A stretch of DNA of 20,955 nt from a virus: the IMG/VR virus record IMGVR_UViG_3300020477_000163, positions 1-20,955 of that record; one strand, 5' to 3'. The number at the start of each line of letters is the position of its first letter. Position 1 is the stretch's first letter. Positions 5,309 through 20,472 of the stretch are shown in pieces. A program made the translations under genes and the position numbers. The notes under the pieces were generated by a model. It did not search any database. It was given only the letters and a program-made list of their open reading frames with translations, and was not told where the DNA came from.

Positions 5309-5995
5309 CTAACTAAGCAACCCTGTAGAGATTCCAGAGGCTGCTCCGGTACCTGATGCTCCTGGAGTGTAAACCACTGAGGGACACATTAGCGTATTGA
5401 GCGCGGAGTCTACCCCAGCACAAACACCGCCTAAGGTTTTTAACATCTCTGAAGATACACCGGTGACCGTATCATTCGGCTTGAACCGGCCATCCGTCGT
5501 AAACTGCGTAATAGCCTCCGCCAGAAAGGCTGCGCTGAGCCCAGGAAACTGTCCTGGGAGTATCTGTGCTGAAGCCACCGTTCCCGCAGCATGACTCTCC
5601 ACCCAGGTAACTTGAACATTGTTTTTAAATGTCTGGCACAAAGCATTTACGAGCGACCCCATAAAAGAACTATCACCAGATTGTGGCCAGGTAGCTAAAC
5701 CTTGTGCGCGACCGAGAGAAGTTGGATCTGACACAAAAGTAAGTGGAGCAGTAGCTACTGTTGCCCCTCCACCGAGTACCCCACCTGTAATGGTGGACAT
5801 TAGGGTAAAGCCGCTCGTGGGGTTTACTACGGAAGACTGAAAGGCACTTACTAAGTTACTTACGATTGCGTGCGTAACTCTAAACTCGGCTATGCCTTTG
5901 TCGGTGTGTGCACGCTTCCCATTATTCATCTGGGGGAAGTCGAGAAGCATCATCCCGTACGCTTCTTCAGTTACAGCAGCCGGTATGTACGGCAT
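5309..5995 (-). CDS. Hypothetical structural-module protein, 228 aa
   Basis: I place the start at ATG 5993-5995, which overlaps the TAA of the spike gene by one base (TAATG) and has AGGG about nine bases upstream. The same frame stays open up to 6115, but that 40-residue extension would run inside the spike gene and is Cys/Trp-rich, unlike the rest. The protein begins MPYIPAAVTEEAYGMMLLDF and is rich in Gly, Ala, Ser and Thr. It has a flexible segment (STITGGVLGGGATVATAPL), a central TWPQSGDSSFMGSLVNALC region and a low-complexity Gly/Ser/Ala tail. No catalytic motif is evident. Coupling to the spike gene suggests a tail or baseplate component, by position only. Confidence 0.75.
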   Translation of the reverse strand: MPYIPAAVTEEAYGMMLLDFPQMNNGKRAHTDKGIAEFRVTHAIVSNLVSAFQSSVVNPTSGFTLMSTITGGVLGGGATVATAPLTFVSDPTSLGRAQGLATWPQSGDSSFMGSLVNALCQTFKNNVQVTWVESHAAGTVASAQILPGQFPGLSAAFLAEAITQFTTDGRFKPNDTVTGVSSEMLKTLGGVCAGVDSALNTLMCPSVVYTPGASGTGAASGISTGLLS

Positions 5996-7770
5996 TAGGA
6001 CCCTACATCTACTTTGACCGACGCAGTAGTAAGCGCAGGACCCACCGCTGTACCAAGTCCACTGCTGGCTACCACACTTGTAGATCCCATGATTGGTGCT
6101 CCGGTAACGAAGCAAACTGGGTGCGTCATTGTCGTAATAACGCCTCCCATAGCGCCTGGGCCATTTAGATGCAGCGTCCCATCCGCAGTAATCTGGATGT
6201 AACTACTATCTGTCCCAATCCTCCAGGCCCCGGAACTCATTCCTATTAACTTTGCCGTGCGAGACGCCCAGTGCAACTCTGCGCTACCTGCTGTTTTTAG
6301 TTCCAGTGCGGAAGCGGCGGCGTCCTTGATGAAAGGGGTCTGAGTACCAGCAAAGATCTGAATATCTCCCAGAGAATTTCGCAAGACCATCGCACCCTGG
6401 TTCAGGTGTACCCGGTACCCATCGGTAGCGTACTCAGAGTTTGAAACGGTGAGGGCTGAATGCTTGGTAATCCCCTCAGTAAAACTACCACCTACAACGG
6501 ATTGCTTGTCTTCGGAACACATCTCGTTAGACGGGCCACCGATGTTTACGGTGCTCGCACCATTAACCTTTACGGTAGAAGGTCCACTTTCTACGGTACT
6601 GAAGCCAGTTGTGATGCTGGTGGCTCCACCATTTACAACCAGGGAATACGTTGGAGATCCTTTTAGTTGGTTCGTAGCAGAATCTATAAATTCCGATGTC
6701 CCTAAGGTTGTGTTCTCAGTAATACCAACAAGCGTCCGCATACCCTTCTGAACGTTCAGTATCTTCACCTGCTCGACAATCTCTTCCGAACCACCCGTAA
6801 TGTGCTTCTGCTCTTTACTCGCCTTAACGCTGAATGCACCGTTCTCCACATTGATGTTGTAAAAACTCTCGCAGGTAAAGGTCTTACCAGCATCGCTTCT
6901 TTCGAAGATGACACCTTCTCTATCAATACGGAGGAGGTAGTTTTCTGAGATTATCTCGCCCATCTGGTCGCCTAGTCGGCTGTCGTCACTTGCTCCAATG
7001 GCAAGCCGATACACTATTCGACCAGTTTGTTTTTTTCTGGCGTTCGGTAGGAACTTGCCGTGGTCCTCTTCCACGTATCCAGCGTCAAGCTTCACTACGG
7101 GAATATCATCGGTGAACTGCTTTACATGCAGCTGAAGCAGTCCAGGGACCCGTTCTGCTCCAGTCTGGGAGGGATCTCCCTCTGCAGCAGAGTATGTACC
7201 TACATAGGGCTCTCTATCATTTGCCAACCTGAACGAACCGCCTGTGGTGTGGAGTTCGTAAGACTCAGCAAATTCTCGAATCAAGTTATTGAGCGGAAAG
7301 TAGAACTTCTTACACGCTGGGCCTGCTCCCATTTCGAGGACGCCAGATCTCCTAAGAACAACATGAGCGCCTTCTCGTGACATTAATAGAATGTCACCCT
7401 CCTGCATTGGAGGCCGCCTATTGCGGTGGCTGCTCTCATTGCTGTCTATCTCAACACCATCATCCGCATCATCGTCTCCAAACTCTTGTGAAGTATCGGG
7501 AGCTGGTCTAAACCCAAGAATGGTGGGCTTTGAACTATCACTTGGGTAGAGGATGTAGACCTTTGACCCTACCTCCGGCATGACATATATGCCCTGCCCG
7601 GCAGAGTCGTTCAGGTACGTTGCCATCAGGGGTATGTCAGTTTCTACGCCTTGGTCTGACTCCCTGACCGCTGAACAGAGAAAGTTCTCTTCATCAACAG
7701 AAACTATTTCCCCGAGAAATACTCTAGGAGGAAGCAGTTTTGTAGTGTCTAGGGAGTATGGGCTCGACAT
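5995..7770 (-). CDS. Baseplate central spike protein (gp5/gpV/VgrG-like), 591 aa
   Basis: The ORF runs from ATG at 7770 to TAA at 5995-5997. Residues about 15-90 have the strand pattern of the OB-fold found at the base of contractile-tail spikes: PRVFLGEIVSVDEENFLCSA, then MPEVGSKVYILYP and KPTILGF. An acidic linker follows (about residues 94-118, with DDDADD). The middle region is beta-rich, and residues about 340-500 are Gly/Ser/Thr/Val-rich with short alternating strands (NGASTVNIGG, LGDIQIFAGTQ), as in the triple-stranded beta-helix of these spikes. The C-terminus (THPVCFVTGAPIMGSTSV) could be a PAAR-like tip, but that is tentative. In the family this trimer pierces the host outer layer at tail contraction. 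No lysozyme domain is visible, unlike T4 gp5. It begins 11 bases after the RNA polymerase stop. Confidence 0.82.
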   Translation of the reverse strand: MSSPYSLDTTKLLPPRVFLGEIVSVDEENFLCSAVRESDQGVETDIPLMATYLNDSAGQGIYVMPEVGSKVYILYPSDSSKPTILGFRPAPDTSQEFGDDDADDGVEIDSNESSHRNRRPPMQEGDILLMSREGAHVVLRRSGVLEMGAGPACKKFYFPLNNLIREFAESYELHTTGGSFRLANDREPYVGTYSAAEGDPSQTGAERVPGLLQLHVKQFTDDIPVVKLDAGYVEEDHGKFLPNARKKQTGRIVYRLAIGASDDSRLGDQMGEIISENYLLRIDREGVIFERSDAGKTFTCESFYNINVENGAFSVKASKEQKHITGGSEEIVEQVKILNVQKGMRTLVGITENTTLGTSEFIDSATNQLKGSPTYSLVVNGGATSITTGFSTVESGPSTVKVNGASTVNIGGPSNEMCSEDKQSVVGGSFTEGITKHSALTVSNSEYATDGYRVHLNQGAMVLRNSLGDIQIFAGTQTPFIKDAAASALELKTAGSAELHWASRTAKLIGMSSGAWRIGTDSSYIQITADGTLHLNGPGAMGGVITTMTHPVCFVTGAPIMGSTSVVASSGLGTAVGPALTTASVKVDVGS

Positions 7771-7781
7771 CCGGTACTGTC

Positions 7782-10700
7782 CTAGTACATCGCAGGATTA
7801 GGGCTTTGGTTGAACTTTGCCCCCCACCCATAGGCCGGTACGGGGTGGTAGCTATTTGTGTAGGACTTAAAGCCATACTGAGCTGCATCAAGAATGCCTT
7901 GCTTAAGTTCTGTAGCCTGCAGCCGAACAAGGAAGTCATCAGAAATCCTGGGCACCTTCTCCGCGGAGAGAAGCATGGGTCTAGCCTTCAACTTGCCACC
8001 AGCTTCTTTATTGAGCTTCTTGTACTGCCCACTACGGATGATGTCACCGTACAACAGTTCCGGGTGCTCTCCCGAGTCTGTGACCTGCATTCGGTCGGTA
8101 AGTGCTCGAACAACCACCTCAGTGTGCTTCCTGAGTAGGTCTCCGTTAGCGCCCCTAACGAGAGTCCCGTGAATTTCATCCACAAGCAGGTCTTGTAGTG
8201 AAGGCAAGTCTCCGGTTGCCTCTAGGAAGTTAAGAGGATGTATTTCACCAGTCTTTGCCAACTTATCCCCAGGATTGACCACCGTTCCTACGGAAAGAGG
8301 CTCTCTATCAACGAGCAGGTCTCCCTCATCCGGCATGTCCTGGAAGGGAACTACCTTGTAGGTCTTGCTCTGTCCCTTTTTACCTAGCGGGTCTACCTTC
8401 ACTTTGAAGATTCCAGAGGGAAGCTTTGTCACCTCGGACACCTTCCCCTTGAATTCCGCTACTGGAACGTGTTCACCAGAGGGCTTCTCCCGAACGTCTA
8501 CAAGCTTTTGTAGCTTCAGGAACATGTTCTGAGTTCCGGCAGCTTTGCCTTTAGCCAGCCCACCGCCGTGGAACACTCGCATACTGAGCTGCGTTAGGGG
8601 CTCACCCAGGGACTGCCCGGAGATAACCCCTATGTTTGTACCTACTGAGTAAAGTTCCCCACTCTCACTTATTCCTACGCACTTCGCACATAGACCATGC
8701 GAAGCCTCGCAAGTAAGAGGACTACGAACCTTTGCTGTCTTCTGCCCCTTCTGCTTCCAAGAAGAGAGCTTTGCTTCGGTGACCTGACCGCCGGTAGACA
8801 AAAAGCGTCCTCTTAAATCAGCGGACCGAGATGAGCCCTTCGCACTATCCCTAAGAGGTAGGGGAATACCTTTTTTGGTCTTGCAGTCCTTTTCAGTAAT
8901 TAAGAAGTCCATTGTGGCCTTCATTACGTGCTTACTGACCATTCCTGGGTCACGAACTGTTTGTACTTTTTGGATGATCCCTTTTCGAGCTCCGTGCAAG
9001 GACGTCATGTAGGACCCGGCATCCAACCCCTCTGAGTAGGAGCGCAGGATAGGTACAGGAACAACCTTATTCTGAGCAGACATGACCAATACAGGAGCTG
9101 CAATCATCTGCTGGAGAGAGTTTGTATCTCCTCTCGAACCAGAGCGAATCATGTCGAACAGGCGGTTCTTAGATGTCCCGAAGTGACCAGCGAGCATGGA
9201 CTTCTTTGAAGCTGACGCACCCTTTGGCGACATCTCTAGTTTTGCGTCTACCTCCTTGTACAAAGAGATAACCTCAAGCTCCTTCTCTTCGATAGGCCTA
9301 TCTGACTGCCAAACCCTGTCTTCTTTTCTCCTAGCTGCGGCAAATACTTTATCCCGGAGCGCTTTGTTCGGGACCCGGAAGTCTTCGAGGGAAACACTGA
9401 ACCCACCTCTAGTCGAGTAGGCGTATCCCAGATTCTTCAGGGTGTCCGCTACAGCAGCAAAACTATCTTTATCCTCTTCTCCAACGGTACCTAACGTCTC
9501 TCGCAGTACCTTCTTGTTGTAAATGCGTTGCTTGGAGAAGGGCACAGACCCGTGCTGCAGCATGATCTTCTTGGTCTTATCCGATATTCCGGGAATTGCT
9601 GATATGGCCTGGTCAATAATGAGCCGCCCCGGCGTAGCCTTTTTGCCAGCTACGGTAACTATGTCATCCATTCGGAGTTCATTTCGCTTGTACGCGATTG
9701 TTACGTCTCGGTTGGTCTTAAACGACTTTCCTGTCTCTCGACCCTTTCTGGACAACATGTAGAGACCGAGAAGAGCTTCCTGTGATGGGACAAACATCGG
9801 GAGGTTTGTAGCCGGACCAAACAGGTTAGCGCTGGGCATCATCCGATATGCCTCGAGCTTTGCTTTGTCCTCTAGCGGGAGGTACAGCGTTCCCTGATCC
9901 CCATCAAAGTCTGCATTTAGAGGTGCGGTTACCAGAGGATGTAGCTGAATGGATTTAGCTGCGGGATCTCCCTTCTTCTTCTGGTAGTTCAGCCTCGGTC
10001 GGAAAGCCATGATTCCGTACTTATGCAGGGTCGGGTCTCGCTTGAAGAGTATTGGGCGTGACTCCATCTCCCGTTTAAGTTGGTCCATCGCCGAGCTATC
10101 TCTCCGGTTCACCAACTTCTTCGCTTCGATGGGTCGCTTTCCTGCCCGAACAAGTCGCTTCACAACGAAGGGTTCGTAGAGACTCCAAGCAATGTCCTCT
10201 GGGATACCTATCTCATCCAGACCTAATGTGGGTTCTGGGATAATCACAGACCCCGCCGTAAAGTCTTGTCGGCGCTTCAGTACTTCTCTCTGGAAGAAAG
10301 ATTCCTTGGGCTCAGTCCCTATTAAACTTTCTAGAATCCCTTTATCGCCTTCTTTCAGGTACCTCTTAGCCGAAGATGTAGAGGGCCCTTGCACTAGACC
10401 ATGCAAAGCCTTCATCCCTTCGTAGATAGCTCCGCGGCTCTCTCGAAGTAGGGGCGTATTATTCGGATTGGAGATTTTTACGTCTCGATCCTTGGCGTCT
10501 TTCAGTACGCCGTCATACCCCGACAGGTTGGCAGCAATAGCCATGTAGTACCTGTTCAGAGCATTCTCAGATTGGTCTTCATCATCCCGAATAGGTCTAA
10601 ACTTCGGGGGAACCACGGGTACAATCGATGTCGTATACGCCTCTACTGGGGAAACCTTTGCTGCCTTAAGGGCCCTAAGAACCCTCACCCTCCGGGTGTG

Positions 10701-13700
10701 GTAGTCCCTGTCATCAATCTTCAGCTCTTTATCCCGAGACTTCGCCAGAGATTCCTTAAGCTCCTTGTTTACATCGAGCTTCTCCAGTGCAGCTACAATG
10801 GCTTCGGGACCAGTCTTCCCATCAACCATCAAGTCTCCCTCTACGACCTCCGTAATCGCCTTCTGTGCCCTCTGAGCGTAGGGATCTTTTGCCTGTGTGA
10901 GTCCCAGTAGGTACGCGATCGATTTCGCATAGATGGGCTTAGGGAATCTCTGCGGGAGTTTGTAGTGGCTCCAGTAGTGCCCGTGAATGCCGCCAGTCTT
11001 TGCAGGGTCGTACAGGCTTCCAGGCTGCTCCTTGTAGCCCTTGTTGGAGTACTGGGCGAGGCTGCCTTCCGAAGGATCTAGAGAACCCTTGCTGGCCGAA
11101 AGAAACTGATTGTCAGTAAGAGGTAACACCTGGAGGCTTTCGCCGTTCTTCTCCAGATCAACACCCATCACATTCAGATAGGAATCAAACTTGTCCCAAA
11201 CGGGGTGTTGGTGTGTCGATATTCTGGGAACTCGAGAGCCTTCTACAATGGCGTCATAGACAGAGCTATTCCATGCGAAGTCTCCGTCGAAGGGACCGCC
11301 AGACTTTGTGCGGATCATCTCCTCGAGGTTCTCTCTAGCACCATGAGCTAGCATCGAATAGAAGTTGAGTTCTCCGAGCCTTCTCGCATCACCAGAAGGT
11401 GACCCTGTAGTCGGATTCACCTTTCCGGCATTCCGAGCACGAAGCTTGCCAGCAACCTGGTGCTTCAACTTCATGATGTACTGCGGGCCAGCAAGAATCG
11501 TATTTGGGTACGGCTTTCCGGTGTCTGGGTCGAGTAGGACTTCCTGGTCACTTAGCTTGGCAGACTTAAGTTCCGACAGAACGTGCTCAAGGTTATTCCG
11601 ACCGCTGAAGTTCTCTACCTTGGCGACAAAACCCTTATCGGTCTTCCGCTTCTTTTCTACTACCTTTGCCAGGCCAGTCTCTAGGACCTGGCCGATGTTT
11701 ACTCGACTAGGTATTCCTGCCGGATTGAGGAGGACGTCTACGACCTTTCCACCACGATTCTTCGGCATCTTCGCGTCTTCAACAACAGCTGTTATGACGC
11801 CTTTCGCTGCGTGGCGGGAGACGATCTTGTCTCCGACCTCGGCCGGCTCTTCTGTTTCAAGCAGTACGGTGTACTCGATAACAGGCTTTCCTAGGCGCTG
11901 ACGTACCTTCTTAATTACGTCTACTACCCTGGCAGAGTTCGTACCCTCCCAATACTGAGACACATTGCCGCCACGACCCTTAGATCCTTTTAGTCGCTTG
12001 GCATACGCCGGTGTCTTGTCGATTAGGGTCGCAATGGGCTGCCCAGGCTCTACCAGGGAGCCTTTCTGAATAACTCCATCCTCGTAGGAGTCGATCTGCG
12101 ATGCGCGGAGCCTGTCCTTGAATAGCGAGGCAAACCGCCTTGCGCTTGTGTACTGGTCCTTCGGGTGTACTTCGAAGTGCTCTTCGTACATGTGCTTACT
12201 GGTTAGTTTCTTCGAAGCACTCTCCGAGATAACAATCCCATCCTCAAAGGTACGACCCTTCCAAGGGAGGTAAGCAACAAACAGATTTCTACCTAGAGCT
12301 AGGGCACCATCCTTACTGAAATTCGTATCTGCAAGAAGGCTTCCCTTCTTTACTCGGTCTCCTACTTTCACCCGAACCTCTGAGTGCAACATGCTGTGCT
12401 CTCTAAGCGGGTACTTGTAATACAGAGGGACCTGCACAGCCCTGCCTATGGCGGGCTTTATCGTCACGGTTGCTTTGTTGCTTTTCTTATCGATATCTAT
12501 GGCCTTGATGCGACCGGATACCGGGGCTCGTACTGATGCGTACTGCCCTAGGCTCTCTTCAAAACTATTGTTCGTCCCTGGAACCTTTACCTGCACCATC
12601 GGAGCTTCTCGACCAACCAGGGACACCGCCTGAGGTATCTGCTTTGTTGCCATGGTTACTCGGTTGCCGTGGTTACTCTCTAAAAAAGGAACCAGGTTGG
12701 TAGCCACCGTAAACATCTGGTGGGCTCTCGGGATTACGTAGTCCACCTTTTCAGGGGAAACTCGAACCATCCGGTCGCCGTGCTGGGCGTTTACTAATTT
12801 TCCCTTCGGGGTGGGCTTCCCACGAGTCCAGGTGTACTGGTCTGGGTATGCAACAACCCCTGCCTGCACCTCAGCAGGGGTAATGTCCCGAAGCTTTCTC
12901 TCCTTCGCATCCCATAGCTCTGATTCAATTACCCCAATCCCTCCCCTAGAGGCTCTCTTGGCTCCGATAGCCATGTGGAGGGTAACGCCTGACCTATCAG
13001 ATTCTGGTGTCTGTAGTGGATCTAGGAAGGTCAGATGACTAGGGCTTATGAGCTTCTGCTCGAATTTAACTATCTGCGGCTTCAGCCCGCCGTGTGTCTG
13101 ACTTATCGGGGTTATCTTTGTTGCTTCGCTCAGGAAGTCTATGGGATTCACCATAGGAGGCTGAGAGCTGAGGTCGTTTGTAGATGTATGTAGAAAAGAG
13201 CTTCGTACCTTGTCAGAGACGACCTTCCGAAGAATCTTGTCAGCACTGACCTGCTTCTTCTTCTTCTTCTTGGAGCCCAGTCCTCTAGAAAGTTTATTTC
13301 TGAGTACTCCTACAATACTGCGACGGACCCTTGGGTCGTAGAAGGGCTCAGCCACAAGATCGTCAGGGCCGGCCACCTTCTGAAACGCTAGGCTAATCCT
13401 GTCGTCAGCTTTTCTGTCACCTTTTGAAGTCTCTACGAGGTTCTTAGCTGCTGCTGCTAGGGCCTCGGGCTCCAGCTTGGAGTACCTCTTTCCTAGCAAT
13501 ACAAGACTAGTGAGCGGGTCGAGCTCCATATCTTGTATGCCTCGAAGGAGATACTTCCGACGCTTTGGCCCCTTCTCTGGCAGGTCAGGGTCTGGTCTCC
13601 GATACACATGGTCAGCTAGGCGGTCCAGGGTTTCGACAAGGAGTTCCTCCTCGGTAACGCCTGAACTTTTTACCTGTCTGCCCCACTTATCCTTATTCGC

Positions 13701-14366
13701 CTTTAGTACGTCTTCTCCCCAACTCTTTTCGAGTTCGGAGTCTGAGACACCCATCTTTTTCAAGATGGGATACAGCATAGGAGGTCGTCGGTAGCCACCA
13801 GAGCCGCGCTTTATTGGGTTGAATGAGATCGCCCCGGTCTCGTCGGTTGTGAGGGAGAAGCGGAACCCTTGCCCAATACCTTCACGGCCTGTAGTTGCCG
13901 CTGTAGTTAGTTTTCCTTTTGCATCTCGTGTAGTGAAGAGCCCATGCCTCTGTCGCATGAGGTGTGCCATCTGGACTTCAGCGGTAGCTTTGTCGGGGGA
14001 CCGAACAAGGTAACTCAACCGATTCGTCATTATGGGGAGGTCCGCTATGCGGGTCCCGACTGCCTTATCGATTACCTTGCCATCCTCCTCTATGAAGACA
14101 TCTGCAAGAAGTGGGATAGAAAAGTTCTTCCCGTGAACCTTTGCATCTCGCTGACTTCCCAGGTCATCGGGATTCTTTCTTCGACGCTCATCAAAACGGA
14201 GGTTCTCTACTCGAACGGAGGTTTTCCCAGCAATGGGCTTACTTCCCACCTCTTCGAACATGTCCTCAAGAGCAGCAAGAAGCTTCTTCTCTGTAGACCT
14301 CTGCACCGAAGCCGGGTTTAACGCCCAAACAGGATCTGAGTCTCTTTCTAGGCGTAAAAACGACAC
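7782..14366 (-). CDS. Single-chain DNA-dependent RNA polymerase, fused beta and beta' subunits, 2194 aa
   Basis: This protein contains both large subunits of a bacterial-type multisubunit RNA polymerase in one chain. The start is GTG at 14366 with only a weak ribosome site (GGGTAG); the stop is TAG at 7782-7784. Beta part, to about residue 1022: lobe/protrusion (LPIMTNRLSYLV), fork region (PSHLTFLDPLQTPES near 444), NRVTMATKQIPQAV at 568, FEDGI at 707 and GDKIVSRHAAKG at 845, with active-site lysines K847 and K855. Beta' part: NADFDGDQ at 1484-1491 (three Mg-binding Asp), bridge helix from about 1740, Zn-site cysteines C1828, C1886, C1893 and C1896, and trigger loop TQLSMRVFHGG with M1929, R1930 and H1933. 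The C-terminus resembles bacterial beta'. The first beta' zinc ribbon is absent. E. coli beta plus beta' total 2749 residues, so this is compact. It should transcribe phage DNA; whether it needs alpha, sigma or a phage factor is unknown. Confidence 0.96.
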   Translation of the reverse strand: MSFLRLERDSDPVWALNPASVQRSTEKKLLAALEDMFEEVGSKPIAGKTSVRVENLRFDERRRKNPDDLGSQRDAKVHGKNFSIPLLADVFIEEDGKVIDKAVGTRIADLPIMTNRLSYLVRSPDKATAEVQMAHLMRQRHGLFTTRDAKGKLTTAATTGREGIGQGFRFSLTTDETGAISFNPIKRGSGGYRRPPMLYPILKKMGVSDSELEKSWGEDVLKANKDKWGRQVKSSGVTEEELLVETLDRLADHVYRRPDPDLPEKGPKRRKYLLRGIQDMELDPLTSLVLLGKRYSKLEPEALAAAAKNLVETSKGDRKADDRISLAFQKVAGPDDLVAEPFYDPRVRRSIVGVLRNKLSRGLGSKKKKKKQVSADKILRKVVSDKVRSSFLHTSTNDLSSQPPMVNPIDFLSEATKITPISQTHGGLKPQIVKFEQKLISPSHLTFLDPLQTPESDRSGVTLHMAIGAKRASRGGIGVIESELWDAKERKLRDITPAEVQAGVVAYPDQYTWTRGKPTPKGKLVNAQHGDRMVRVSPEKVDYVIPRAHQMFTVATNLVPFLESNHGNRVTMATKQIPQAVSLVGREAPMVQVKVPGTNNSFEESLGQYASVRAPVSGRIKAIDIDKKSNKATVTIKPAIGRAVQVPLYYKYPLREHSMLHSEVRVKVGDRVKKGSLLADTNFSKDGALALGRNLFVAYLPWKGRTFEDGIVISESASKKLTSKHMYEEHFEVHPKDQYTSARRFASLFKDRLRASQIDSYEDGVIQKGSLVEPGQPIATLIDKTPAYAKRLKGSKGRGGNVSQYWEGTNSARVVDVIKKVRQRLGKPVIEYTVLLETEEPAEVGDKIVSRHAAKGVITAVVEDAKMPKNRGGKVVDVLLNPAGIPSRVNIGQVLETGLAKVVEKKRKTDKGFVAKVENFSGRNNLEHVLSELKSAKLSDQEVLLDPDTGKPYPNTILAGPQYIMKLKHQVAGKLRARNAGKVNPTTGSPSGDARRLGELNFYSMLAHGARENLEEMIRTKSGGPFDGDFAWNSSVYDAIVEGSRVPRISTHQHPVWDKFDSYLNVMGVDLEKNGESLQVLPLTDNQFLSASKGSLDPSEGSLAQYSNKGYKEQPGSLYDPAKTGGIHGHYWSHYKLPQRFPKPIYAKSIAYLLGLTQAKDPYAQRAQKAITEVVEGDLMVDGKTGPEAIVAALEKLDVNKELKESLAKSRDKELKIDDRDYHTRRVRVLRALKAAKVSPVEAYTTSIVPVVPPKFRPIRDDEDQSENALNRYYMAIAANLSGYDGVLKDAKDRDVKISNPNNTPLLRESRGAIYEGMKALHGLVQGPSTSSAKRYLKEGDKGILESLIGTEPKESFFQREVLKRRQDFTAGSVIIPEPTLGLDEIGIPEDIAWSLYEPFVVKRLVRAGKRPIEAKKLVNRRDSSAMDQLKREMESRPILFKRDPTLHKYGIMAFRPRLNYQKKKGDPAAKSIQLHPLVTAPLNADFDGDQGTLYLPLEDKAKLEAYRMMPSANLFGPATNLPMFVPSQEALLGLYMLSRKGRETGKSFKTNRDVTIAYKRNELRMDDIVTVAGKKATPGRLIIDQAISAIPGISDKTKKIMLQHGSVPFSKQRIYNKKVLRETLGTVGEEDKDSFAAVADTLKNLGYAYSTRGGFSVSLEDFRVPNKALRDKVFAAARRKEDRVWQSDRPIEEKELEVISLYKEVDAKLEMSPKGASASKKSMLAGHFGTSKNRLFDMIRSGSRGDTNSLQQMIAAPVLVMSAQNKVVPVPILRSYSEGLDAGSYMTSLHGARKGIIQKVQTVRDPGMVSKHVMKATMDFLITEKDCKTKKGIPLPLRDSAKGSSRSADLRGRFLSTGGQVTEAKLSSWKQKGQKTAKVRSPLTCEASHGLCAKCVGISESGELYSVGTNIGVISGQSLGEPLTQLSMRVFHGGGLAKGKAAGTQNMFLKLQKLVDVREKPSGEHVPVAEFKGKVSEVTKLPSGIFKVKVDPLGKKGQSKTYKVVPFQDMPDEGDLLVDREPLSVGTVVNPGDKLAKTGEIHPLNFLEATGDLPSLQDLLVDEIHGTLVRGANGDLLRKHTEVVVRALTDRMQVTDSGEHPELLYGDIIRSGQYKKLNKEAGGKLKARPMLLSAEKVPRISDDFLVRLQATELKQGILDAAQYGFKSYTNSYHPVPAYGWGAKFNQSPNPAMY

Positions 14367-14383
14367 GTAAAACTACCCAACAG

Positions 14384-14396
14384 TTAGCGCATATCT
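14384..14396. promoter_or_regulatory. Shared 13-base motif in divergent spacer, copy 1
   Basis: TTAGCGCATATCT lies in the 52-base spacer between the RNA polymerase start (14366, leftward) and the small rightward ORF (14419). It matches 12 of 13 bases with the copy at 17888-17900 in the only other divergent spacer. Read leftward it is AGATATGCGCTAA, about 17 bases from the polymerase GTG. Read rightward it sits 5 bases before the AAGGAGGT site. Orientation and role (promoter or operator) are not known. Confidence 0.5.
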
Positions 14397-14401
14397 CTTA
14401 G

Positions 14402-14418: not shown

Positions 14419-14598
14419 ATGCTGATTGTACCCATAGTGCTGTCAATGATGGGAGGCTTTGCATACGGACTTATGCCGCATGCCTTTAAGTCACGCCCAT
14501 ACCACCCTGACGACGGGGCGGTCGATCCTCAGGAAGAGGGCGCATGTCCTGCTGAGTCTCGGCGAGTCGACCCTGAGCCTCGCCCTTTTGGGACGTAG
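14419..14598 (+). CDS. Putative small membrane-associated protein, 59 aa, antisense to the portal gene end
   Basis: A short plus-strand ORF runs from ATG at 14419 to TAG at 14596-14598, preceded by a perfect AAGGAGGT site. The first 20 residues (MLIVPIVLSMMGGFAYGLMP) are hydrophobic enough for one membrane segment or signal anchor. The remaining 39 residues are polar and Pro-rich (PYHPDDGAVDPQEEGA) and probably disordered. Bases 14486-14598 overlap, in antisense, the last 113 bases of the portal gene. It is the only rightward gene candidate inside the leftward block and follows the shared motif. A one-helix membrane protein could be a lysis or exclusion factor, but there is no family evidence. 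Chance occurrence remains possible. Confidence 0.5.
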   Translation: MLIVPIVLSMMGGFAYGLMPHAFKSRPYHPDDGAVDPQEEGACPAESRRVDPEPRPFGT

Positions 14599-16240
14599 GA
14601 AGTTGCGTTACGTTAGTCGCCTCAGGTTGCTGTATAGCTTCCTGGGGCGACTGCTCCCCCCTAGCAGAGTCCTCAAGGTATGCCTGGGTCTTCTTCTGGT
14701 ACATCGTTTGGAGCATTCCCATCTCCCCTGAGATGTGCGCCTCCTCCATCTTCTGGTTCAGTAGAACTGCTGCCTTCACACGGTTTTCTTTATTTATTCT
14801 CTCTTGCTCTTCACGGAAGCTCAGGTCCATCTCGCCCAGCAAGGTCTCGTCGGAAATCTTGCCATTGGAAGAGAGGTTCATAAGGATCTGCTTGGCCTGT
14901 ACATCGTCACCCATCTTGAACGGGGACATCTCTGCACGAACCAGGGGTAGGCCCAGCACTCGAGAGAGCATAGGAATAATGAAACTGTTCAGCATCCTGT
15001 GGTGCTGGAGTCGGTAGGTCATGAGGATGTTTTCCAACATCTTCAAAGAGACAGACGACGAACTCCATCGAAGACCCCCAAAAACCATCTCCTGAGGCAC
15101 ACCCATACCGGCCAGGCGCTGTTTACTAAGCTCTTGGATCTCCTGAACCAGTAATAATGCCTTACCCTGTCCACCAAACTGCTGCATCTGGAGGGGGAGT
15201 GGGAAGATTGGGATGTGATTAACGTCTCCTCGCCACTTTCGAATCTGAGACTCAACCTCCTTCTTCCACTGCGCTAGGTTCACCGTACGATAGACGTCGA
15301 TACTTCCCGTACCTGCCGGGGAGAGCCACCGCATAGGCACTACATGGTCATGAAGAATCGCCTCCTGGGCTTTCTTCATAAGCTGTATGTAGTAACCATC
15401 CTTCAGTGTTGGGAGAATCGGAGGGAATCCCCAACCCATCTGCGTATCATCCACAACAATACTCGGAGGCTTGAAGTGGAATAGGTTGGAGTTTTCGAGC
15501 TTAAAGCTGATTCCCTTTCGGAGAGCCTCGAGCATTTCTACCGGGGTAGACGCAATTGCCTTTACATCCCCGCTGTTGAGCAGGGACTTGTACGAGTTAG
15601 GAATGTTGTACCGATAAACATACTCACTGGACATCGGGTAGTAGGTGATGTCGATATCTCGAACATTCCACCGCTTAAGCCGTGTATTCCTAGCTGAGCG
15701 TATGTACCTGTCCTCAACATGCGGCTCTGAAGTGTGCCGGCACTTCGGGCAGATCAGGCTGAACCTATACTTATTGAAGGTCCAGTCCTTCCTCGCCTTA
15801 AGGGCAGTGAGGTCAAACTCTGCCTCGCATGCCTTGCACTTGAGAAACTTTTTAAATGGTACTCGAAGAGAGACTATGGAGTTCCCGTACCCGTAGTAAT
15901 CGAGACCAATCTCAATCTGAAACATCTCCATTTGGAGATTATCGTGCAGTACCTCTTCCCACTTACGCTTTATAGAGGTGGGTATGTTTCCCCCATCAAC
16001 TCCGGTAAGGCGGATAGGGGTAATTGGGTACGTCGCCATCTTCGACGCAGCTGCTGAAACCAGTGGGTCAGCAACCATCGCATAGAGGCACGCATCAAAG
16101 AGTTGCTTAATTCCCTGTGTAGGGAGTCGCTGCTGCGCTACATCGAAGAATGGGTTGGGATATCTCTTAGAGGTCTGGCTCGCAGTGGCGCTCGCACCTG
16201 CCCAGGGAACTCTATACCCGGTGTTAGGTCCGAAACTCAT
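14486..16240 (-). CDS. Portal-like protein with internal zinc ribbon, 584 aa
   Basis: The start ATG at 16240 overlaps the TGA of the previous gene (ATGA, 4 bases). The stop is at 14486-14488. The layout fits a portal protein, the dodecameric ring at one capsid vertex through which DNA is packaged: a helical N-terminal region (FDACLYAMVADPLVSAAASK), a mixed alpha/beta core, a long helical segment ending KALLLVQEIQELSKQRLAGM followed by GVPQEMVFGG, and a C-terminal coiled region with a disordered Gln/Pro/Arg-rich tail. Two CxxC pairs (C135/C138 and C164/C167) form a zinc ribbon inserted in the N-terminal half. The assignment rests on overall pattern and context, not on a signature motif. A related minor capsid or neck protein is the main alternative. 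Confidence 0.72.
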   Translation of the reverse strand: MSFGPNTGYRVPWAGASATASQTSKRYPNPFFDVAQQRLPTQGIKQLFDACLYAMVADPLVSAAASKMATYPITPIRLTGVDGGNIPTSIKRKWEEVLHDNLQMEMFQIEIGLDYYGYGNSIVSLRVPFKKFLKCKACEAEFDLTALKARKDWTFNKYRFSLICPKCRHTSEPHVEDRYIRSARNTRLKRWNVRDIDITYYPMSSEYVYRYNIPNSYKSLLNSGDVKAIASTPVEMLEALRKGISFKLENSNLFHFKPPSIVVDDTQMGWGFPPILPTLKDGYYIQLMKKAQEAILHDHVVPMRWLSPAGTGSIDVYRTVNLAQWKKEVESQIRKWRGDVNHIPIFPLPLQMQQFGGQGKALLLVQEIQELSKQRLAGMGVPQEMVFGGLRWSSSSVSLKMLENILMTYRLQHHRMLNSFIIPMLSRVLGLPLVRAEMSPFKMGDDVQAKQILMNLSSNGKISDETLLGEMDLSFREEQERINKENRVKAAVLLNQKMEEAHISGEMGMLQTMYQKKTQAYLEDSARGEQSPQEAIQQPEATNVTQLPTSQKGEAQGRLAETQQDMRPLPEDRPPRRQGGMGVT

Positions 16241-16848
16241 GCTGCAACTCCCCTAGCGAGGTAGGTATCTACCGCAGACTTCGCACGTTTCCAAATTTCC
16301 AGCTGCAGGCCGATATCGTACGAAACCTCACCGCCCTTAAGTGCTTGCTCAATAGTAGCTTTTGAGGGCATCTCGGCCTTCCGATTCTCCATGTAGCTGT
16401 CAATTATGCTTTGGGCTCCTTCAAGACCTGGAGGAGCTAACCAGCATCCGTCATGGAGGAGAGTAGCAGTTGCGTACGCTAAGACCTCTCCCTGGAGAGA
16501 TTCTTTTGGGACTACCTCTTTAATAGCCGCTACCGCCACAACCAGCTCTTCTGTAGTAATCGGCTGTAGAGCGTCAAAATCTGGAATTACTCCATTAACT
16601 GCGTTGGCAAGTTTTTCAAACATCCACGCATCTTCTAGACATCTCTTGGCGGTAAGCAAGTCCTGGATAAAGAACAGCTTTGCCGCCGCGAGCGGGGAAA
16701 CGGTTGTCTTGTACGTTTCTCGTAAAGCACCGTGGATACTGGAAGGTAAAAGATTCTTCCAGTTAGGTCCTATGGATGCTTCTACTAGCGAAACAAGCGC
16801 ACTTAGTGGTGCACTCCCTTCCTCCAGAAGGTTGCGTGGGTCAAGCAT
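16237..16848 (-). CDS. Hypothetical helical protein preceding the portal gene, 203 aa
   Basis: The ORF runs from ATG at 16848, with GAGG about five bases upstream, to TGA at 16237-16239. It starts six bases after the preceding stop and overlaps the portal start by four bases, so the three genes are almost certainly co-expressed. The sequence is mostly helical, with conserved-looking blocks PNWKNLLPSSIHGALRETYK, SPLAAAKLFFIQDLLTAKRC and EDAWMFEKLANAVNGVIPDF. It resembles, from memory, unnamed helical proteins found near portal genes in large phages; this is weak support. It has no membrane segment or catalytic motif. A role in head assembly or the neck is plausible but inferred from position. 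Confidence 0.72.
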   Translation of the reverse strand: MLDPRNLLEEGSAPLSALVSLVEASIGPNWKNLLPSSIHGALRETYKTTVSPLAAAKLFFIQDLLTAKRCLEDAWMFEKLANAVNGVIPDFDALQPITTEELVVAVAAIKEVVPKESLQGEVLAYATATLLHDGCWLAPPGLEGAQSIIDSYMENRKAEMPSKATIEQALKGGEVSYDIGLQLEIWKRAKSAVDTYLARGVAA

Positions 16849-16854
16849 TGTTCC

Positions 16855-17811
16855 TCACGCAAGCATGCTTGTAAGGGCATCTTTTTCGGGATCTGGAAGT
16901 GCGTTCACTACCGTGGTGGGATCTTTTTTGAGGTCATCGAGGAAGCGGTCGCCAAACACACGCCGCACCTCGGCTTCCTTACCAACCAGTTTGTCGAGGA
17001 AGCTGTCCTCTGCACTGGCTGTTTTTACATAGGGCTTATCCGAAGAGTAAACCGTCTCCCAGGGATCTGGGACCTTAGCTCCCCAGAATCGCTCCAGGCC
17101 ATGCTCCTTATCGAACCTCGTAAGGAGACGAACCATCGCTGTAGGCTCGAACTGAGCGTGCTTCTCAAGGATGTATATCGCCTGGTCTCGTGCACCGGAG
17201 TCCGTAACCAGGTGCTTACGAAGATTCATAGCTCCCTGGAAACCTGCGCCGTAGGCAGAGCCAGAGTAGGAAGCAACCTTCCCAAAAACAGGGACCCCCT
17301 GAGACTCCATTCGCTCTCGAATAGCTACAGCAACTTCACGAACCTTCTCCAGAGGAAGGCTGTGGTAGTGCAAATCAAACCAGTCTCCAAGACCAGCGGC
17401 TTCTTTTACTGGGTCTTCCCTAACAACTGTCTTCGTTGTAGGAGGTTTACCGACGACTACGTTCCCAGAAACGGCCGAGTCTGCCCGGTACGTAGGGCCC
17501 TCTACATCGTAAAGAATAGAGGCTCGCTCGAGGTTGACCGAAGCTACCTTCCGCATTCCTTCAGGAAGGCTTCCTCCGTACAGGTTAAAGGATGCAACAG
17601 AAAGTGTGGTGCTCGCGGCATCCTTGCAGAGATAACGCCGCAACTTAGACGACCCATCCCGGATTACGAGAGCAAATCTGTTGTCCGGAACACCAGAAAG
17701 CTCCTCACCGCTGTGCACAGAAGCCGTCTTTACCGCTTCAAGCTGTTCATCACTCAGTGAGTCGAGTGTTCCCAAGGGGTCATCATAAAAATCGATCATG
17801 TAGCGACTCAT
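16855..17811 (-). CDS. Putative virion protein rich in K-x-A-[A/S] motifs, 318 aa
   Basis: I choose ATG 17809-17811 (MSRYMIDFYDDPLG), which has GGAG about 9 bases upstream. The frame is open to a TTG at 17874, but that extension lacks a ribosome site. The stop is TGA at 16855-16857. The protein has six K-x-A-[A/S] motifs (KTAS twice, KVAS twice, KDAA, KEAA), a beta-rich first half and a helical second half. The segment KHAQFEPTAMVRLLTRFDKE followed by HGLERFWGAKVPDPWETVYS resembles an uncharacterised structural family I have seen in large phages, though I cannot name it. It is the first gene of the leftward block, next to the portal cluster, which fits a head or maturation role. Confidence 0.75.
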   Translation of the reverse strand: MSRYMIDFYDDPLGTLDSLSDEQLEAVKTASVHSGEELSGVPDNRFALVIRDGSSKLRRYLCKDAASTTLSVASFNLYGGSLPEGMRKVASVNLERASILYDVEGPTYRADSAVSGNVVVGKPPTTKTVVREDPVKEAAGLGDWFDLHYHSLPLEKVREVAVAIRERMESQGVPVFGKVASYSGSAYGAGFQGAMNLRKHLVTDSGARDQAIYILEKHAQFEPTAMVRLLTRFDKEHGLERFWGAKVPDPWETVYSSDKPYVKTASAEDSFLDKLVGKEAEVRRVFGDRFLDDLKKDPTTVVNALPDPEKDALTSMLA

Positions 17812-17887
17812 TAAAGAGATCTCCAGCCAGTGTAGCTCCGAGCACTTTACCGCATGCGTCGAGGCTCTAGACAATAGAACCTAGAAA

Positions 17888-17933: not shown

Positions 17934-18536
17934 GTGTTCCGAAAACCTAGTGGGCACAGCTCGTCGGGTCAATCTTCATATTCTAAAGCAAAGATTGATC
18001 TGACTAAACTGGGGTCCAAGGGAACCCCAACAAGTACGACATCTCGTTTATTTGGCGGGCAGAGTAACAGCTCTTCCGCGACCAACTCAAGATTCGGTAT
18101 TCCGGGATCCTTCGTAGACAAGAGGGCTCAGGAAACAGGCTATTCGCCACCGGGAAGTTCTGTCGAAGACTTCACGCGACAAAGAATAGAAGCCAATAAA
18201 ATATTATCAGCTAGTGGGCACCGACTTCAGGTCCCCCCTCCTCCTCCACAGTACGTAGTCCTCCAGCAGGAACCGCAGGAACAAGAGGTACGTTACGTGT
18301 ATGTGGATTCCTCAGGATCCCCCGTGAATCCTAAGGGTCCTATTGGGCAACCGCCACCAGACGCAGTATTTGCCCCCTATGTCTCACCGTTCAAATATCG
18401 TGTAAAGCATCTCGGAGTCGACTTAGCCGAGGGTGTGCTCTACACAGCATGCATGGTCTTTGGCAGCTACTTAATGAACGGTCTCTTCCGTTCATTGCTA
18501 GAAGACAACCCAACCCCAAGAAAGTATCCACAGTGA
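17934..18536 (+). CDS. Ser/Pro-rich protein with one putative membrane segment, 200 aa
   Basis: The ORF starts at GTG 17934 behind a strong AAGGAGGT site and ends with TGA at 18534-18536. The first 95 residues are Ser/Thr/Gly-rich, basic and probably disordered (SGHSSSGQSSYSKAKIDLTK). A PPPPPP run near residue 101 and a Gln/Glu-rich segment follow, then a short conserved-looking C-terminal part. That part holds a likely membrane helix at about residues 165-187 (AEGVLYTACMVFGSYLMNGL) before a polar tail. It could be a membrane-anchored adaptor with the long N-terminus in the cytoplasm, which is inference. I do not recognise the family. It opens the rightward block and overlaps the helicase start by four bases. 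Confidence 0.75.
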   Translation: MFRKPSGHSSSGQSSYSKAKIDLTKLGSKGTPTSTTSRLFGGQSNSSSATNSRFGIPGSFVDKRAQETGYSPPGSSVEDFTRQRIEANKILSASGHRLQVPPPPPQYVVLQQEPQEQEVRYVYVDSSGSPVNPKGPIGQPPPDAVFAPYVSPFKYRVKHLGVDLAEGVLYTACMVFGSYLMNGLFRSLLEDNPTPRKYPQ

Positions 18537-19837
18537 CTGAAGCTTACCGCTGGGTTTCCAAGAGGGACGTAGGTGCCCTCACCCAGGAAATACTAAAGAA
18601 GAAACTGACTATCCCCATTGGGGACCAGGAAATGGGTTTCTACCTGGAAACAGGTTCAGCCCTAGGTATCCCTCTGTACTTTGACGAGACCTCTCCTCCT
18701 TCGCCAGAGGGGGGAGAGGAAGTCTACTGGCCTGAGCCGGCCATTGAGCTCTATGGCTACCAGATGGAAGCTATGAAGGCGCTCGAAGAAAATGGTAGGG
18801 GCATCTTGAAGATGGCCACCGGCTCTGGGAAAACATTAACTGCATTGTGTGCTGCCGCTGCTTCTGGGAAGGCCACATTGGTCATCGTGCACAGCAATGT
18901 CCTTATGCAGCAATGGTGTAGCACCATAGAAAAAACATTCGGTATCGAAGCCGGCGTTGTTCAAGGCCCCATAAAGAAATGGAAGTGGGATGCTTCTCCA
19001 GTCGTAGTAGCCATGCTGCAAACGCTGGGGACGCACATGGGTAACGAGCCTAAAGGTTTTAGAGAGCGCTTCGGCAACACCATTTTTGACGAGGTACACC
19101 ACCTACAGGCAGAGCATTTCTCCAAGGGTGTGTACTACTCGTTGAACAACCGATGGGGTCTGAGTGCCACGCCTTTTGGAAACCGACTTGACCAGGCTAT
19201 ACGCTGGAACTTCGGAGACATCGTTTACGAGTACAACGATCTCCCCATTAAACCCAGTGTGTACGCCCACTGGTTTCCTGCCCCTTCGGACTACAGTGCG
19301 GACCTCCCATGGGGCCAACGGATTCTTCTAAGCAACCCGGGCCGAGTTCTGACCTGTCTAGAGCTTACGCTTAACCTAGCTAAAGAAGATCGAAGTGTTC
19401 TGGTTATGAGTCCTACCGTGAAATCTCTACTCTCCTTGAAAAGAGGCTACGAACAAAGAGCCACAGAGGCTGGTATGCCATGGCTCGTAGAAGAAGCGGG
19501 GTTGCTTACGGGAAAGACACCAAAGCCAGCGCGACCATCTGAAGTAGCGAAACTAGTTCTATTCGTAACGCAGCACACAGCCCTAGCAACCGAGGGATTA
19601 GATCGACCTCAAACAGAAGCCGTCATCGTGCACGGGTCCTGTATGGGCAGTCGAACCTTCCACCAGATAATAGGCAGAGCTGCCAGACGCCATGAAAACA
19701 AGACCCAGGCCGAAGTGCACTTTTTATGTGATGACTTTGCCCCTTATAAACACGCCATAGAAAAACGCCTTAGAGAAGCACAAACGAAAGGTCTGGAGGT
19801 GACATGGGAAGCCTCTACAGTACAGAGTCCCAACTAG
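18533..19837 (+). CDS. Superfamily 2 DNA/RNA helicase (DEVH-box), 434 aa
   Basis: The likely start is GTG 18533, overlapping the previous stop as GTGA; the open frame begins earlier at 18449 but that part lies inside the previous gene. All core SF2 motifs are readable: an upstream YQ (76-77), Walker A MATGSGKT (94-101), the DEVH box FDEVHH (DEVH 186-189), SATP (211-214), motif V TEGLDRP (353-359) and motif VI QIIGRAAR (378-385). The order and spacing fit UvsW- or XPB-like helicases, which remodel forks and recombination intermediates using ATP. The N-terminal 70 residues are a short accessory region. A role in phage DNA replication or repair is likely, and the neighbouring uracil-DNA glycosylase supports this. 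The exact substrate cannot be read from the sequence. Confidence 0.92.
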   Translation: MTEAYRWVSKRDVGALTQEILKKKLTIPIGDQEMGFYLETGSALGIPLYFDETSPPSPEGGEEVYWPEPAIELYGYQMEAMKALEENGRGILKMATGSGKTLTALCAAAASGKATLVIVHSNVLMQQWCSTIEKTFGIEAGVVQGPIKKWKWDASPVVVAMLQTLGTHMGNEPKGFRERFGNTIFDEVHHLQAEHFSKGVYYSLNNRWGLSATPFGNRLDQAIRWNFGDIVYEYNDLPIKPSVYAHWFPAPSDYSADLPWGQRILLSNPGRVLTCLELTLNLAKEDRSVLVMSPTVKSLLSLKRGYEQRATEAGMPWLVEEAGLLTGKTPKPARPSEVAKLVLFVTQHTALATEGLDRPQTEAVIVHGSCMGSRTFHQIIGRAARRHENKTQAEVHFLCDDFAPYKHAIEKRLREAQTKGLEVTWEASTVQSPN

Positions 19838-20472
19838 AAGCATTACAAACGAAGTATTCAGACTGCACAGACTGCAATCTACATAGAGATAGGCACCAGG
19901 TTGTTCCCGGGTACGGGAGCAGTACCTCAAAACTACTCATTCTCGCTGAAGCACCAGGACACACGGAAGACCGCAAAGGAATTCCGCTGGTAGGTAAGTC
20001 CGGCAAACTTCTGGACCTTGCGCTAGAGCATTCCGGCATAGAACGAGACTCGGTATGGACAACGAACACAGTCCTCTGCATCCCGAAAGGGGTAAAGGGG
20101 CCTAGGAGTGTTCAGGCCCCAACCGCACCACAAATAAAAGCTTGTTCAGAGCGCCTACACAAAGAGGTGTACGCACTGGACCCAGTAGCAGTCCTGGCTC
20201 TCGGGACTACAGCGGTGAAGCAGCTGAAGGGAGCTGCGAATCTACGTTTGGGTACTGCAGTCGGAAAGGTTTTCCGTCTGGAAGTCACTGGTAGGCACAT
20301 CTCGAAGGTGTCCTATCCAGCAGTTGCTACATGGCACCCAGCGTACCTCCTTAGAAATAACGCACTTCGCTATGAAAACAATCAGCTCGTTCCCGCGCAT
20401 AAGACGGGAGAAGAGTGGTTAGAACACATTCAACTAGCAATACACCTAAGCAAATTACCCCGGAGTTTTTAG
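19804..20472 (+). CDS. Uracil-DNA glycosylase, family 4-like with iron-sulfur cluster, 222 aa
   Basis: The ORF runs from ATG at 19804, preceded by GGAGGT, to TAG at 20470-20472, and overlaps the helicase end by 34 bases. It has the family 4/5 pattern: AEAPG at 48-52 (family usually GEAPG), GIPLVGKSGKLLD at 59-71, TNTVLC ending at C92, and THE C-terminal WHPAYLLR with H178. Four cysteines, C21, C24, C92 and C114, are spaced as the ligands of the [4Fe-4S] cluster in family 4 enzymes. Such enzymes cut uracil from DNA to start base-excision repair. Similar domains occur beside or fused to phage DNA polymerases (the SPO1-type domain). Its length is typical. A non-catalytic replication role cannot be excluded. 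Confidence 0.92.
   Translation: MGSLYSTESQLEALQTKYSDCTDCNLHRDRHQVVPGYGSSTSKLLILAEAPGHTEDRKGIPLVGKSGKLLDLALEHSGIERDSVWTTNTVLCIPKGVKGPRSVQAPTAPQIKACSERLHKEVYALDPVAVLALGTTAVKQLKGAANLRLGTAVGKVFRLEVTGRHISKVSYPAVATWHPAYLLRNNALRYENNQLVPAHKTGEEWLEHIQLAIHLSKLPRSF

Follow-up and report, generated by a model that had tools for sequence, protein, structure and literature searches.

The RpoBC proteins of Helicobacter and Wolbachia are co-linear fusions of the beta and beta' subunits of a cellular RNA polymerase (RNAP). Among phage enzymes, crAss-like gp66 and P23-45 gp96 are virion RNAPs; crAss-like gp66 and P23-45 gp96/gp64 are single-chain too, but highly diverged and without homology to beta/beta' profiles, and YonO is a phage-encoded single chain of the two-barrel type, of ~100 kDa and with only very distant homology. 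The vRNAP and nvRNAP of phiKZ and AR9 have no alpha subunit and are divided into four to five strongly diverged chains. The mReC clade comprises deep-branching, bacterial-like phage RNAPs from IMG/VR that carry a NADxDGD motif and stand apart from those of cells; it was described in terms of beta and beta' subunits, a fusion being noted only for crAssphage (Weinheimer and Aylward 2020, PMC7481178). For Salmonella phage Arash, the accessible parts of the published account name gp206 "subunit beta" and do not mention a fusion (PMC10585845); we find that gp206 comprises beta and the N-terminal part of beta', the C-terminal part being encoded as gp216. Here, we describe a window of 20,955 nucleotides, positions 1 to 20,955 of the IMG/VR virus record IMGVR_UViG_3300020477_000163, which encodes a fused, bacterial-like form that is new among phage RNAPs and may overlap with mReC.

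One Open Reading Frame Encodes a Fused Beta-Beta' Chain

The RNAP frame starts with GTG and runs without interruption for 2194 aa. A first-pass annotation had read it as beta landmarks followed by beta' landmarks, and alignment recovers all of those that it named, including NRVTMATKQIPQAV (aa 568-581) and FEDGI (aa 707-711) in beta. The features of the chain are as follows.

7782..14366, minus strand: single-chain beta-beta' RNA polymerase, 2194 aa (open reading frame; Pfam, PHROG and PDB matches; trees)
11142..14366, minus strand: beta half, aa 1-1075 (AlphaFold model and structure match)
11799..11834, minus strand: GDKIVSRHAAKG, aa 845-856, with the beta active-site lysines K847 and K855 (aligned with E. 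coli beta K1065/K1073)
11115..11153, minus strand: fusion junction, aa 1072-1084 (alignments with the E. coli beta C-terminal end, the beta' N-terminal end and other single chains)
7785..11141, minus strand: beta' half, aa 1076-2194 (AlphaFold model and structure match)
9894..9917, minus strand: NADFDGDQ, catalytic Mg-binding loop, aa 1484-1491 (D1486/1488/1490 correspond to E. coli beta' D460/462/464)
8913..9020, minus strand: bridge helix region, HGARKG... (E. coli beta' alignment)
8679..8885, minus strand: second zinc site, C1828/C1886/C1893/C1896 (all four cysteines align with E. coli C814/C888/C895/C898)
8559..8618, minus strand: canonical trigger loop GQSLGEPLTQLSMRVFHGGG (M1929, R1930 and H1933 correspond to E. 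coli M932, R933 and H936)

The DxDxD loop, the two basic beta-barrel residues, the bridge helix and the trigger loop of two-barrel RNAPs are all in place in the residue-by-residue E. coli alignment, and K847, K855 and the aspartate triad of NADFDGDQ are invariant across 25 aligned single chains. In this frame, beta and beta' of the bacterial type are fused co-linearly, with every catalytic residue present. Along the one chain, Pfam domains follow in order, Rpb2 domain 6 (2e-50) and then Rpb1 domains 2, 5, and 3 (1e-24, 4e-20, and 4e-8), strong matches that separate it from the minimal or diverged chains of the crAss-like and YonO kind, which lack a beta/beta' profile match; being one uninterrupted frame, it also differs from the phiKZ-like enzymes, in which beta and beta' are split into several chains. 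Comparison by phmmer with solved bacterial beta' chains gives E-values down to 5e-87, so that chance similarity is excluded.

Structure prediction, which had been proposed as a check, was run on the two halves separately. In Foldseek, the AlphaFold model built for aa 1-1110 (pLDDT 79) aligns with full-length bacterial beta (T. thermophilus 4oin_C, E 5e-59, TMq 0.65), and the one built for the beta' half (pLDDT 80) aligns with bacterial beta' (8i24_D, E 1e-55, TMq 0.70; Foldseek E down to 1e-57); both halves are thus predicted to fold as full-length bacterial beta and beta'. In sequence, too, the chain can be aligned with both bacterial subunits across almost all of its length. At the junction, the end of beta (GVDLEKN) is followed by ~10 residues and then by the start of beta', LTDNQFLSASKG.

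Unlike YonO, the window chain keeps the whole bacterial anatomy, save for one zinc-binding domain of beta' and some of the flap. The domain missing is the first (N-terminal) beta' zinc-binding domain, the positions of C70/C72/C85/C88 being gapped in all phages examined; the flap has half the length of that in E. coli. In the beta' clamp helices, the residues that contact sigma in E. coli (R275, E295, A302) are not conserved in the phage chain. The E. coli rifampicin-contact residues Q513, H526, R529, and S531 correspond, in a loose alignment, to S401, E414, K417, and T419, from which we predict that the phage enzyme is naturally insensitive to rifampicin.

Distribution and Phylogeny of the Fused Chain

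A single-sequence search of IMG/VR returned nothing; alignment-based searches found relatives, among them 72 other IMG/VR contigs that each encode the chain in one piece (1998-2889 aa). The window RNAP is one member of a large family, and the same enzyme is found in many uncultured phages. In the beta tree, the beta' tree, and the joint tree, a phage-only clade (support 100) stands beside a clade of the sampled bacteria (99-100). The beta and beta' trees agree in setting the fused phage clade apart from all sampled bacteria, and both halves fall together on the phage branch, the outcome that the first-pass annotation had named as support.

The same family includes the RNAPs of Arash (gp206 and gp216) and of Vibrio phages D69, D148, and D181, at ~30% identity, with both halves monophyletic, beta and the N-terminal part of beta' fused, and the portal and RNAP genes adjacent. 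Whereas the window encodes an intact chain, Arash and D69 have one cut after the active site, leaving the C-terminal part of beta' as a separate gene, with the loop AADYDGD and a noncanonical trigger loop; this site is also that of the post-barrel beta' split of phiKZ and AR9. Other members of the clade have two cuts. One RNAP per genome is encoded in the fused clade. The first-pass annotation had proposed a notable intermediate architecture: The fusion and the intact catalytic residues hold, but the enzyme is better seen as part of a bacterial-like lineage with one-, two-, and three-chain forms than as an intermediate between phiKZ and crAss-like enzymes.

The bacterial look of the NADFDGDQ and trigger loop, together with the existence of fused rpoBC in bacteria, could suggest a recent capture of a fused host gene, as in Helicobacter or Wolbachia. 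This is highly improbable: A scan of 84,980 species gave best cellular matches of 26-32% identity, against 36-39% in phages, both halves lie in the phage clade with the sampled bacteria outside (Helicobacter- and Wolbachia-type fused genera not being in the trees), and the phage enzyme, shorter than these cellular RpoBC proteins, lacks the beta' zinc-binding domain and an alpha gene. That the frame joins two genes through an assembly or frameshift artefact is barely credible; the enzyme is indeed divided into two or three chains in some relatives, but it is uninterrupted in 72 independent contigs, and no relative's cut falls at the beta/beta' border. Nor is the contig bacterial: Dozens of phage contigs share the arrangement of genes around the RNAP, portal and baseplate spike included.

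The window shares with mReC the deep branching and the NADxDGD motif, as judged from our trees and the motif, mReC sequences themselves not being in the trees. The mReC capsid proteins found were all PF07068, with only 8/97 contigs having any (PMC7481178); PF07068 was found in 0/24 fused-clade records tested. Matches to the PF03237 terminase, mostly weak, occur in 9/24 fused-clade records, and the mReC paper assigns 17/31 terminases to this family (PMC7481178). It should be noted that PHROGs 25354 and 24349, considered as phage families, were dropped, their lengths suggesting bacterial rpoC/rpoB from prophage predictions.

A Conserved Cassette beside the Portal Gene

Homologues of the neighbouring genes were counted in 221 fetched phage stretches.

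562..1422, minus strand: conserved gene of the RNAP cassette (homologues in 24/221)
1422..3371, minus strand: conserved gene of the RNAP cassette (88/221)
5995..7770, minus strand: baseplate spike (gpV-like), directly downstream of RNAP (PF04717 E 0.005, under the cut-off; 88/221)
14486..16240, minus strand: portal protein, directly upstream of RNAP (28% to the Arash portal, E 4e-71; 97/221)
16237..16848, minus strand: conserved gene between the portal and the next gene listed (24/221)
16855..17874, minus strand: conserved gene of the RNAP cassette (43/221)
18449..19837, plus strand: SF2 (ResIII/DEAD) helicase, divergently oriented (PF04851 1e-21; same divergent place in relatives)
19804..20472, plus strand: uracil-DNA glycosylase (UDG) superfamily (PF03167 5e-27; same place in relatives)

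The order UDG-helicase / two genes-portal-RNAP-baseplate spike is repeated in many single-chain contigs, and a terminase was found in neighbouring positions of related phage contigs. The position of the RNAP gene beside the portal is consistent with a virion RNAP.

Alpha, Sigma, and the Arash Virion

A profile search for alpha (RNA_pol_L) found none in 22/22 related genomes. A sigma factor of the Arash gp10 type is encoded in 20/22 fused-clade genomes (23/28 records searched) and in 0/9 phages whose bacterial-like RNAP is of another kind. The Pfam profile for sigma region 2 recovers a sigma from just 9/22 genomes, a count that reflects low sensitivity, since the gp10 search finds more. The window is a 21-kb fragment, and any sigma gene of its own would lie beyond it; in the closest syntenic relative, a gp10-type sigma is encoded at 13246-13881 (match 2e-19). 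In several fused-clade genomes, the gene sits inside a tail/hydrolase block.

Among cultured relatives with a published proteome, Arash is the closest, and the accessible data place both RNAP and sigma in purified particles. There, gp206 is the most-detected virion protein, at 3516 spectra, 100% coverage and 128 unique peptides; the counts for other proteins include 1333 for the major capsid protein, 1210 for gp216, 1148 for the SF2 helicase gp217, 877 for the portal, and 467 (100% coverage) for the sigma gp10 (PMC10585845). Spectra per residue are near-equal, about 2.0-2.4, for the core chains, gp10, and gp217, a rough stoichiometry given that the major capsid is clearly under-counted by spectra. 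The lack of a "structural protein" tag on gp206 in GenBank was rejected as a sign of nonpackaging, as only former hypotheticals were re-tagged and the virion data rank gp206 top (PMC10585845).

A Proposed Packaged, Sigma-Programmed RNA Polymerase

With a probability of about two in three, we favor a model in which an alpha-less, sigma-programmed, packaged single-chain RNAP transcribes early phage genes. The covalent beta-beta' link would take over the assembly role of the alpha dimer, as no alpha gene was found, and a phage sigma of the Arash gp10 family would set promoter recognition. RNAP and sigma would be made late and packaged into the virion; they would reach the cell together with the DNA and there transcribe early phage genes without host RNAP. 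Because the Arash RNAP and sigma are reported from virions, it is probable that the window enzyme, too, is carried into the cell along with the DNA and begins to transcribe independently of the host polymerase; Arash has the two-chain form with an altered trigger loop, so that packaging, sigma dependence, and early transcription would extend to the single chain by homology.

Presence in Arash particles could also be carry-over of an ordinary nonvirion RNAP for middle or late genes, which we consider unlikely. The preparation held 116 proteins, with ribonucleotide reductases and many other metabolic enzymes among them, the authors allow for abundant cytosolic carry-over, and a second sigma, gp196, does not appear in the virion table as accessible (PMC10585845); with one RNAP per genome, late genes also need either the phage RNAP or the host enzyme. 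Against this, the RNAP is the most-detected Arash protein, its second chain and gp10 are present at similar length-normalized counts, its gene lies in a virion-morphogenesis cassette, and that of the sigma is placed among tail genes. It is likewise unlikely that transcription starts independently of sigma, by the enzyme alone or with an unrelated phage factor (like AR9 nvRNAP), the sigma genes serving to reprogramme host RNAP. The unconserved sigma-binding residues and short flap would agree with this, phage sigmas often act on host RNAP, and at some Arash GGTATAAG sites the sequence is TGGTATAAG, similar also to an extended -10 element; but the gp10-type sigma tracks the clade and is found with the RNAP in the Arash virion data.

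On balance, we lean slightly towards a broader reading of the packaged, sigma-programmed RNAP, in which a widespread lineage packages a sigma-dependent, alpha-less holoenzyme (fused chain and virion sigma, in some with the SF2 helicase) whose chain later acquired one or two cuts, the first of them at a site where cyanobacterial and phiKZ-like enzymes are divided as well. Should the packaged sigma be confirmed, phages of this lineage would bring their own bacterial-style holoenzyme with them into the cell; no such strategy was found in the literature searched.

Fusion and Splitting of the Chain

With L299 set aside, the single-chain sequences group on one side of a branch whose support is only 34, so that the tree alone does not decide whether the clade began with one chain or with two. 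The second cut of the three-chain forms falls ~90 residues within beta', which indicates their descent from a fused chain; this position, together with outgroups with contiguous beta', argues for fusion first and splitting later, and bears on deriving split phage RNAPs from joined ones. The opposite direction has been argued for split phage RNAPs (PMC7824862). As a bacterial-like RNAP that appears to need no alpha and is encoded by one gene, the chain offers a single-protein system for assembly, sigma use, and fusion.

A single chain carrying both bacterial-type subunits

The window, an IMG/VR virus record and a fragment of 20,955 bases, encodes the RNA polymerase (RNAP) in the following setting:

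7782–14366, minus strand: RNAP, open over 2194 codons
Upstream of the RNAP: portal protein (28% to the portal of Salmonella phage Arash, 4e-71)
Downstream of the RNAP: baseplate-spike-like protein

In Pfam, the beta catalytic domain (Rpb2_6) matches residues 673–992, and the beta' domains Rpb1_2, Rpb1_3, and Rpb1_5 match residues 1365–2101 of the same chain. Alignment with Escherichia coli positioned every catalytic landmark (E. coli numbering): E813/D814, K1065, K1073, and R1106 in beta, R425, N458, and the Asp triad in beta', and M932/R933/H936 in the trigger loop. In this alignment, the second zinc site also has all four of its cysteines, whereas the beta' N-terminal zinc-binding domain is absent and about half of the E. 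coli flap region is missing. The beta end (GVDLEKN) passes through ~10 residues into the beta' start (LTDNQFLSASKG), and the fusion is thus co-linear with the bacterial rpoB–rpoC order. The frame opens with a GTG immediately behind an in-frame TAG, a putative exact start at which inspection by eye (14300–14400, minus strand) revealed no clear Shine-Dalgarno sequence.

The structure prediction suggested by the first-pass annotation was run as two AlphaFold half-models built from 25 single-chain sequences. In Foldseek, the best solved structure was a bacterial beta for residues 1–1110 (pLDDT 79) and a bacterial beta' for residues 1076–2194 (pLDDT 80), at E values near 1e-58 for both and TM scores of about 0.65–0.70.

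That annotation had also read the frame as one real fused chain on a phage contig, and the data confirm a phage gene rather than an assembly artefact: scans of IMG/VR returned an intact single chain (1998–2889 aa) in 72 contigs. Against a bacterial contig stand the flanking portal and spike genes and a gene order (UDG, helicase [divergent], two unknown genes, portal, RNAP, spike, two more unknown genes) seen again in dozens of independent contigs; in the relatives L010, L012, and L111, the terminase lies just past this cassette. The longest chains probably contain insertions. Those of L014 (10529–17056) and L016 (9767–17308) have intein-like insertions at GDK|..|SRYG in beta and within the beta' trigger loop after FH, and the other chains over 2300 aa (L173, L177, and L222) probably carry insertions too. 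In three further contigs (L150, L170, and L183) the frame lies in two or three ORFs though similarity is continuous, through sequencing errors, introns, or decay.

Phylogeny and chain architecture

Trees were calculated for beta, for beta', and for both together under a site-mixture model; supports are SH-aLRT values from a quick search, and branches are long. The three trees agree, indicating one shared history of both halves. Both halves fall into one phage clade, the outcome that the first-pass annotation named as support; this clade unites the one-, two-, and three-chain forms (support 100), and the sampled bacteria form their own clade (99–100). A recent host gene is thereby ruled out as far as the bacterial sampling extends. 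Among 84,980 species, the top cellular matches are at only 26–32%. The window lies within a 23-row single-chain group (99–100), nearest to L010/L012/L111 (99 in the beta' and joint trees). A distinct phage group (L192, L237, L286, L288, and L295), with beta and beta' unfused, is closer to bacteria than the fused clade is, and lacks a sigma factor of the type of Arash gp10.

The two-chain form (beta–beta'N plus beta'C) occurs in Arash, Vibrio phage D69, and about fifteen contigs. The break follows the beta' active-site barrel (near residue 1572 of the window's chain), at the point where the same alignment also divides cyanobacterial rpoC1/rpoC2 and where phiKZ-like enzymes are split. Three contigs (L017, L020, and L026) have a second cut at about 1157–1217, so that their first chain comprises all of beta and some 90 N-terminal residues of beta'. 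Because this second cut interrupts beta' itself instead of falling at the beta/beta' border, the three-chain forms derive from an already fused chain; they are nested among the two-chain forms. On the trees, the basal state of the fused clade may be either a single chain or two chains. L299 (3527–9640), whose single chain is unbroken, sits within the two-chain clade at the end of a very long branch and possibly reflects re-fusion or misplacement. Members of the two-/three-chain Arash-like group (L002, L003, L005, and L017) have AADYDGD or AADFDGD instead of NADFDGD and a trigger loop without the usual GEP..TQ..MRTFH pattern, yet the RNAP is abundant in Arash virions.

In the literature searched, no description of this fused bacterial-like RNAP was found. 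The available passages of the Arash paper (PMC10585845), whose enzyme is of the same family, do not mention fusion. The closest named group, compared by description and possibly overlapping with this family, is mReC (Weinheimer and Aylward 2020); the paper (PMC7481178) speaks of beta and beta' subunits and mentions fusion for crAssphage only. Metagenome 3300017989, the source of two of the three displayed mReC representatives, holds both a fused chain (L199) and the unfused pair L237, and the mReC capsid family PF07068 was found in none of 24 fused-clade records tested.

A candidate virion RNA polymerase

While the enzyme, its fusion, and its place among phages are properties of the window itself, its packaging, sigma factor, and early transcription are inferred from relatives. 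Each of 22 related genomes has one RNAP, and an RNA_pol_L search of them found no alpha-type gene. Pfam sigma region 2 recovered a sigma factor in 9 of the 22, and a search with gp10 recovered homologues in 20, including the window's closest syntenic relative, as against 0/9 phages with other bacterial-like RNAPs; these homologues sit among tail and hydrolase genes.

In the published Arash virion proteome (PMC10585845), gp206 (beta plus the beta' N-part) is the most detected of all proteins, with 3516 spectra and 100% coverage; the beta' C-part gp216 has 1210, sigma gp10 467, and the SF2 helicase gp217 1148, compared with 1333 for the capsid and 877 for the portal. Per residue these counts give about 2.3 (gp206), 2.0 (gp216), 2.0 (gp10), and 2.4 (gp217), compatible with a packaged core–sigma(–helicase) set near 1:1:1:1, on a measure that clearly under-counts the capsid. 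As metabolic enzymes are among the 116 proteins detected, carry-over is possible, a point also made by the Arash authors. Homologues of gp217 occur in only 7/22 related genomes, and the helicase is therefore not a universal part of the set.

The single RNAP without alpha, the common gp10-type sigma, and the Arash detection favor a virion RNAP, which would be covalently self-assembled without alpha, be programmed by a packaged sigma, and first be used on early genes. It would work like phiKZ vRNAP, crAss-like gp66, and P23-45 gp96, but differs from each in sequence or architecture.

Arash encodes a second sigma factor, gp196 (L316:8657–9694), not among the virion-table entries examined and possibly a later-stage sigma for the same core. 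A promoter-like motif, GGTATAAGNNNNNTGTAA, partly resembling an extended -10 element, has 12 sites at <=2 mismatches in Arash 1–50000 (L308) and 112000–160000 (L316), versus about 0.9 expected; all are on the minus strand, most just 5' of minus-strand (non-structural) genes.
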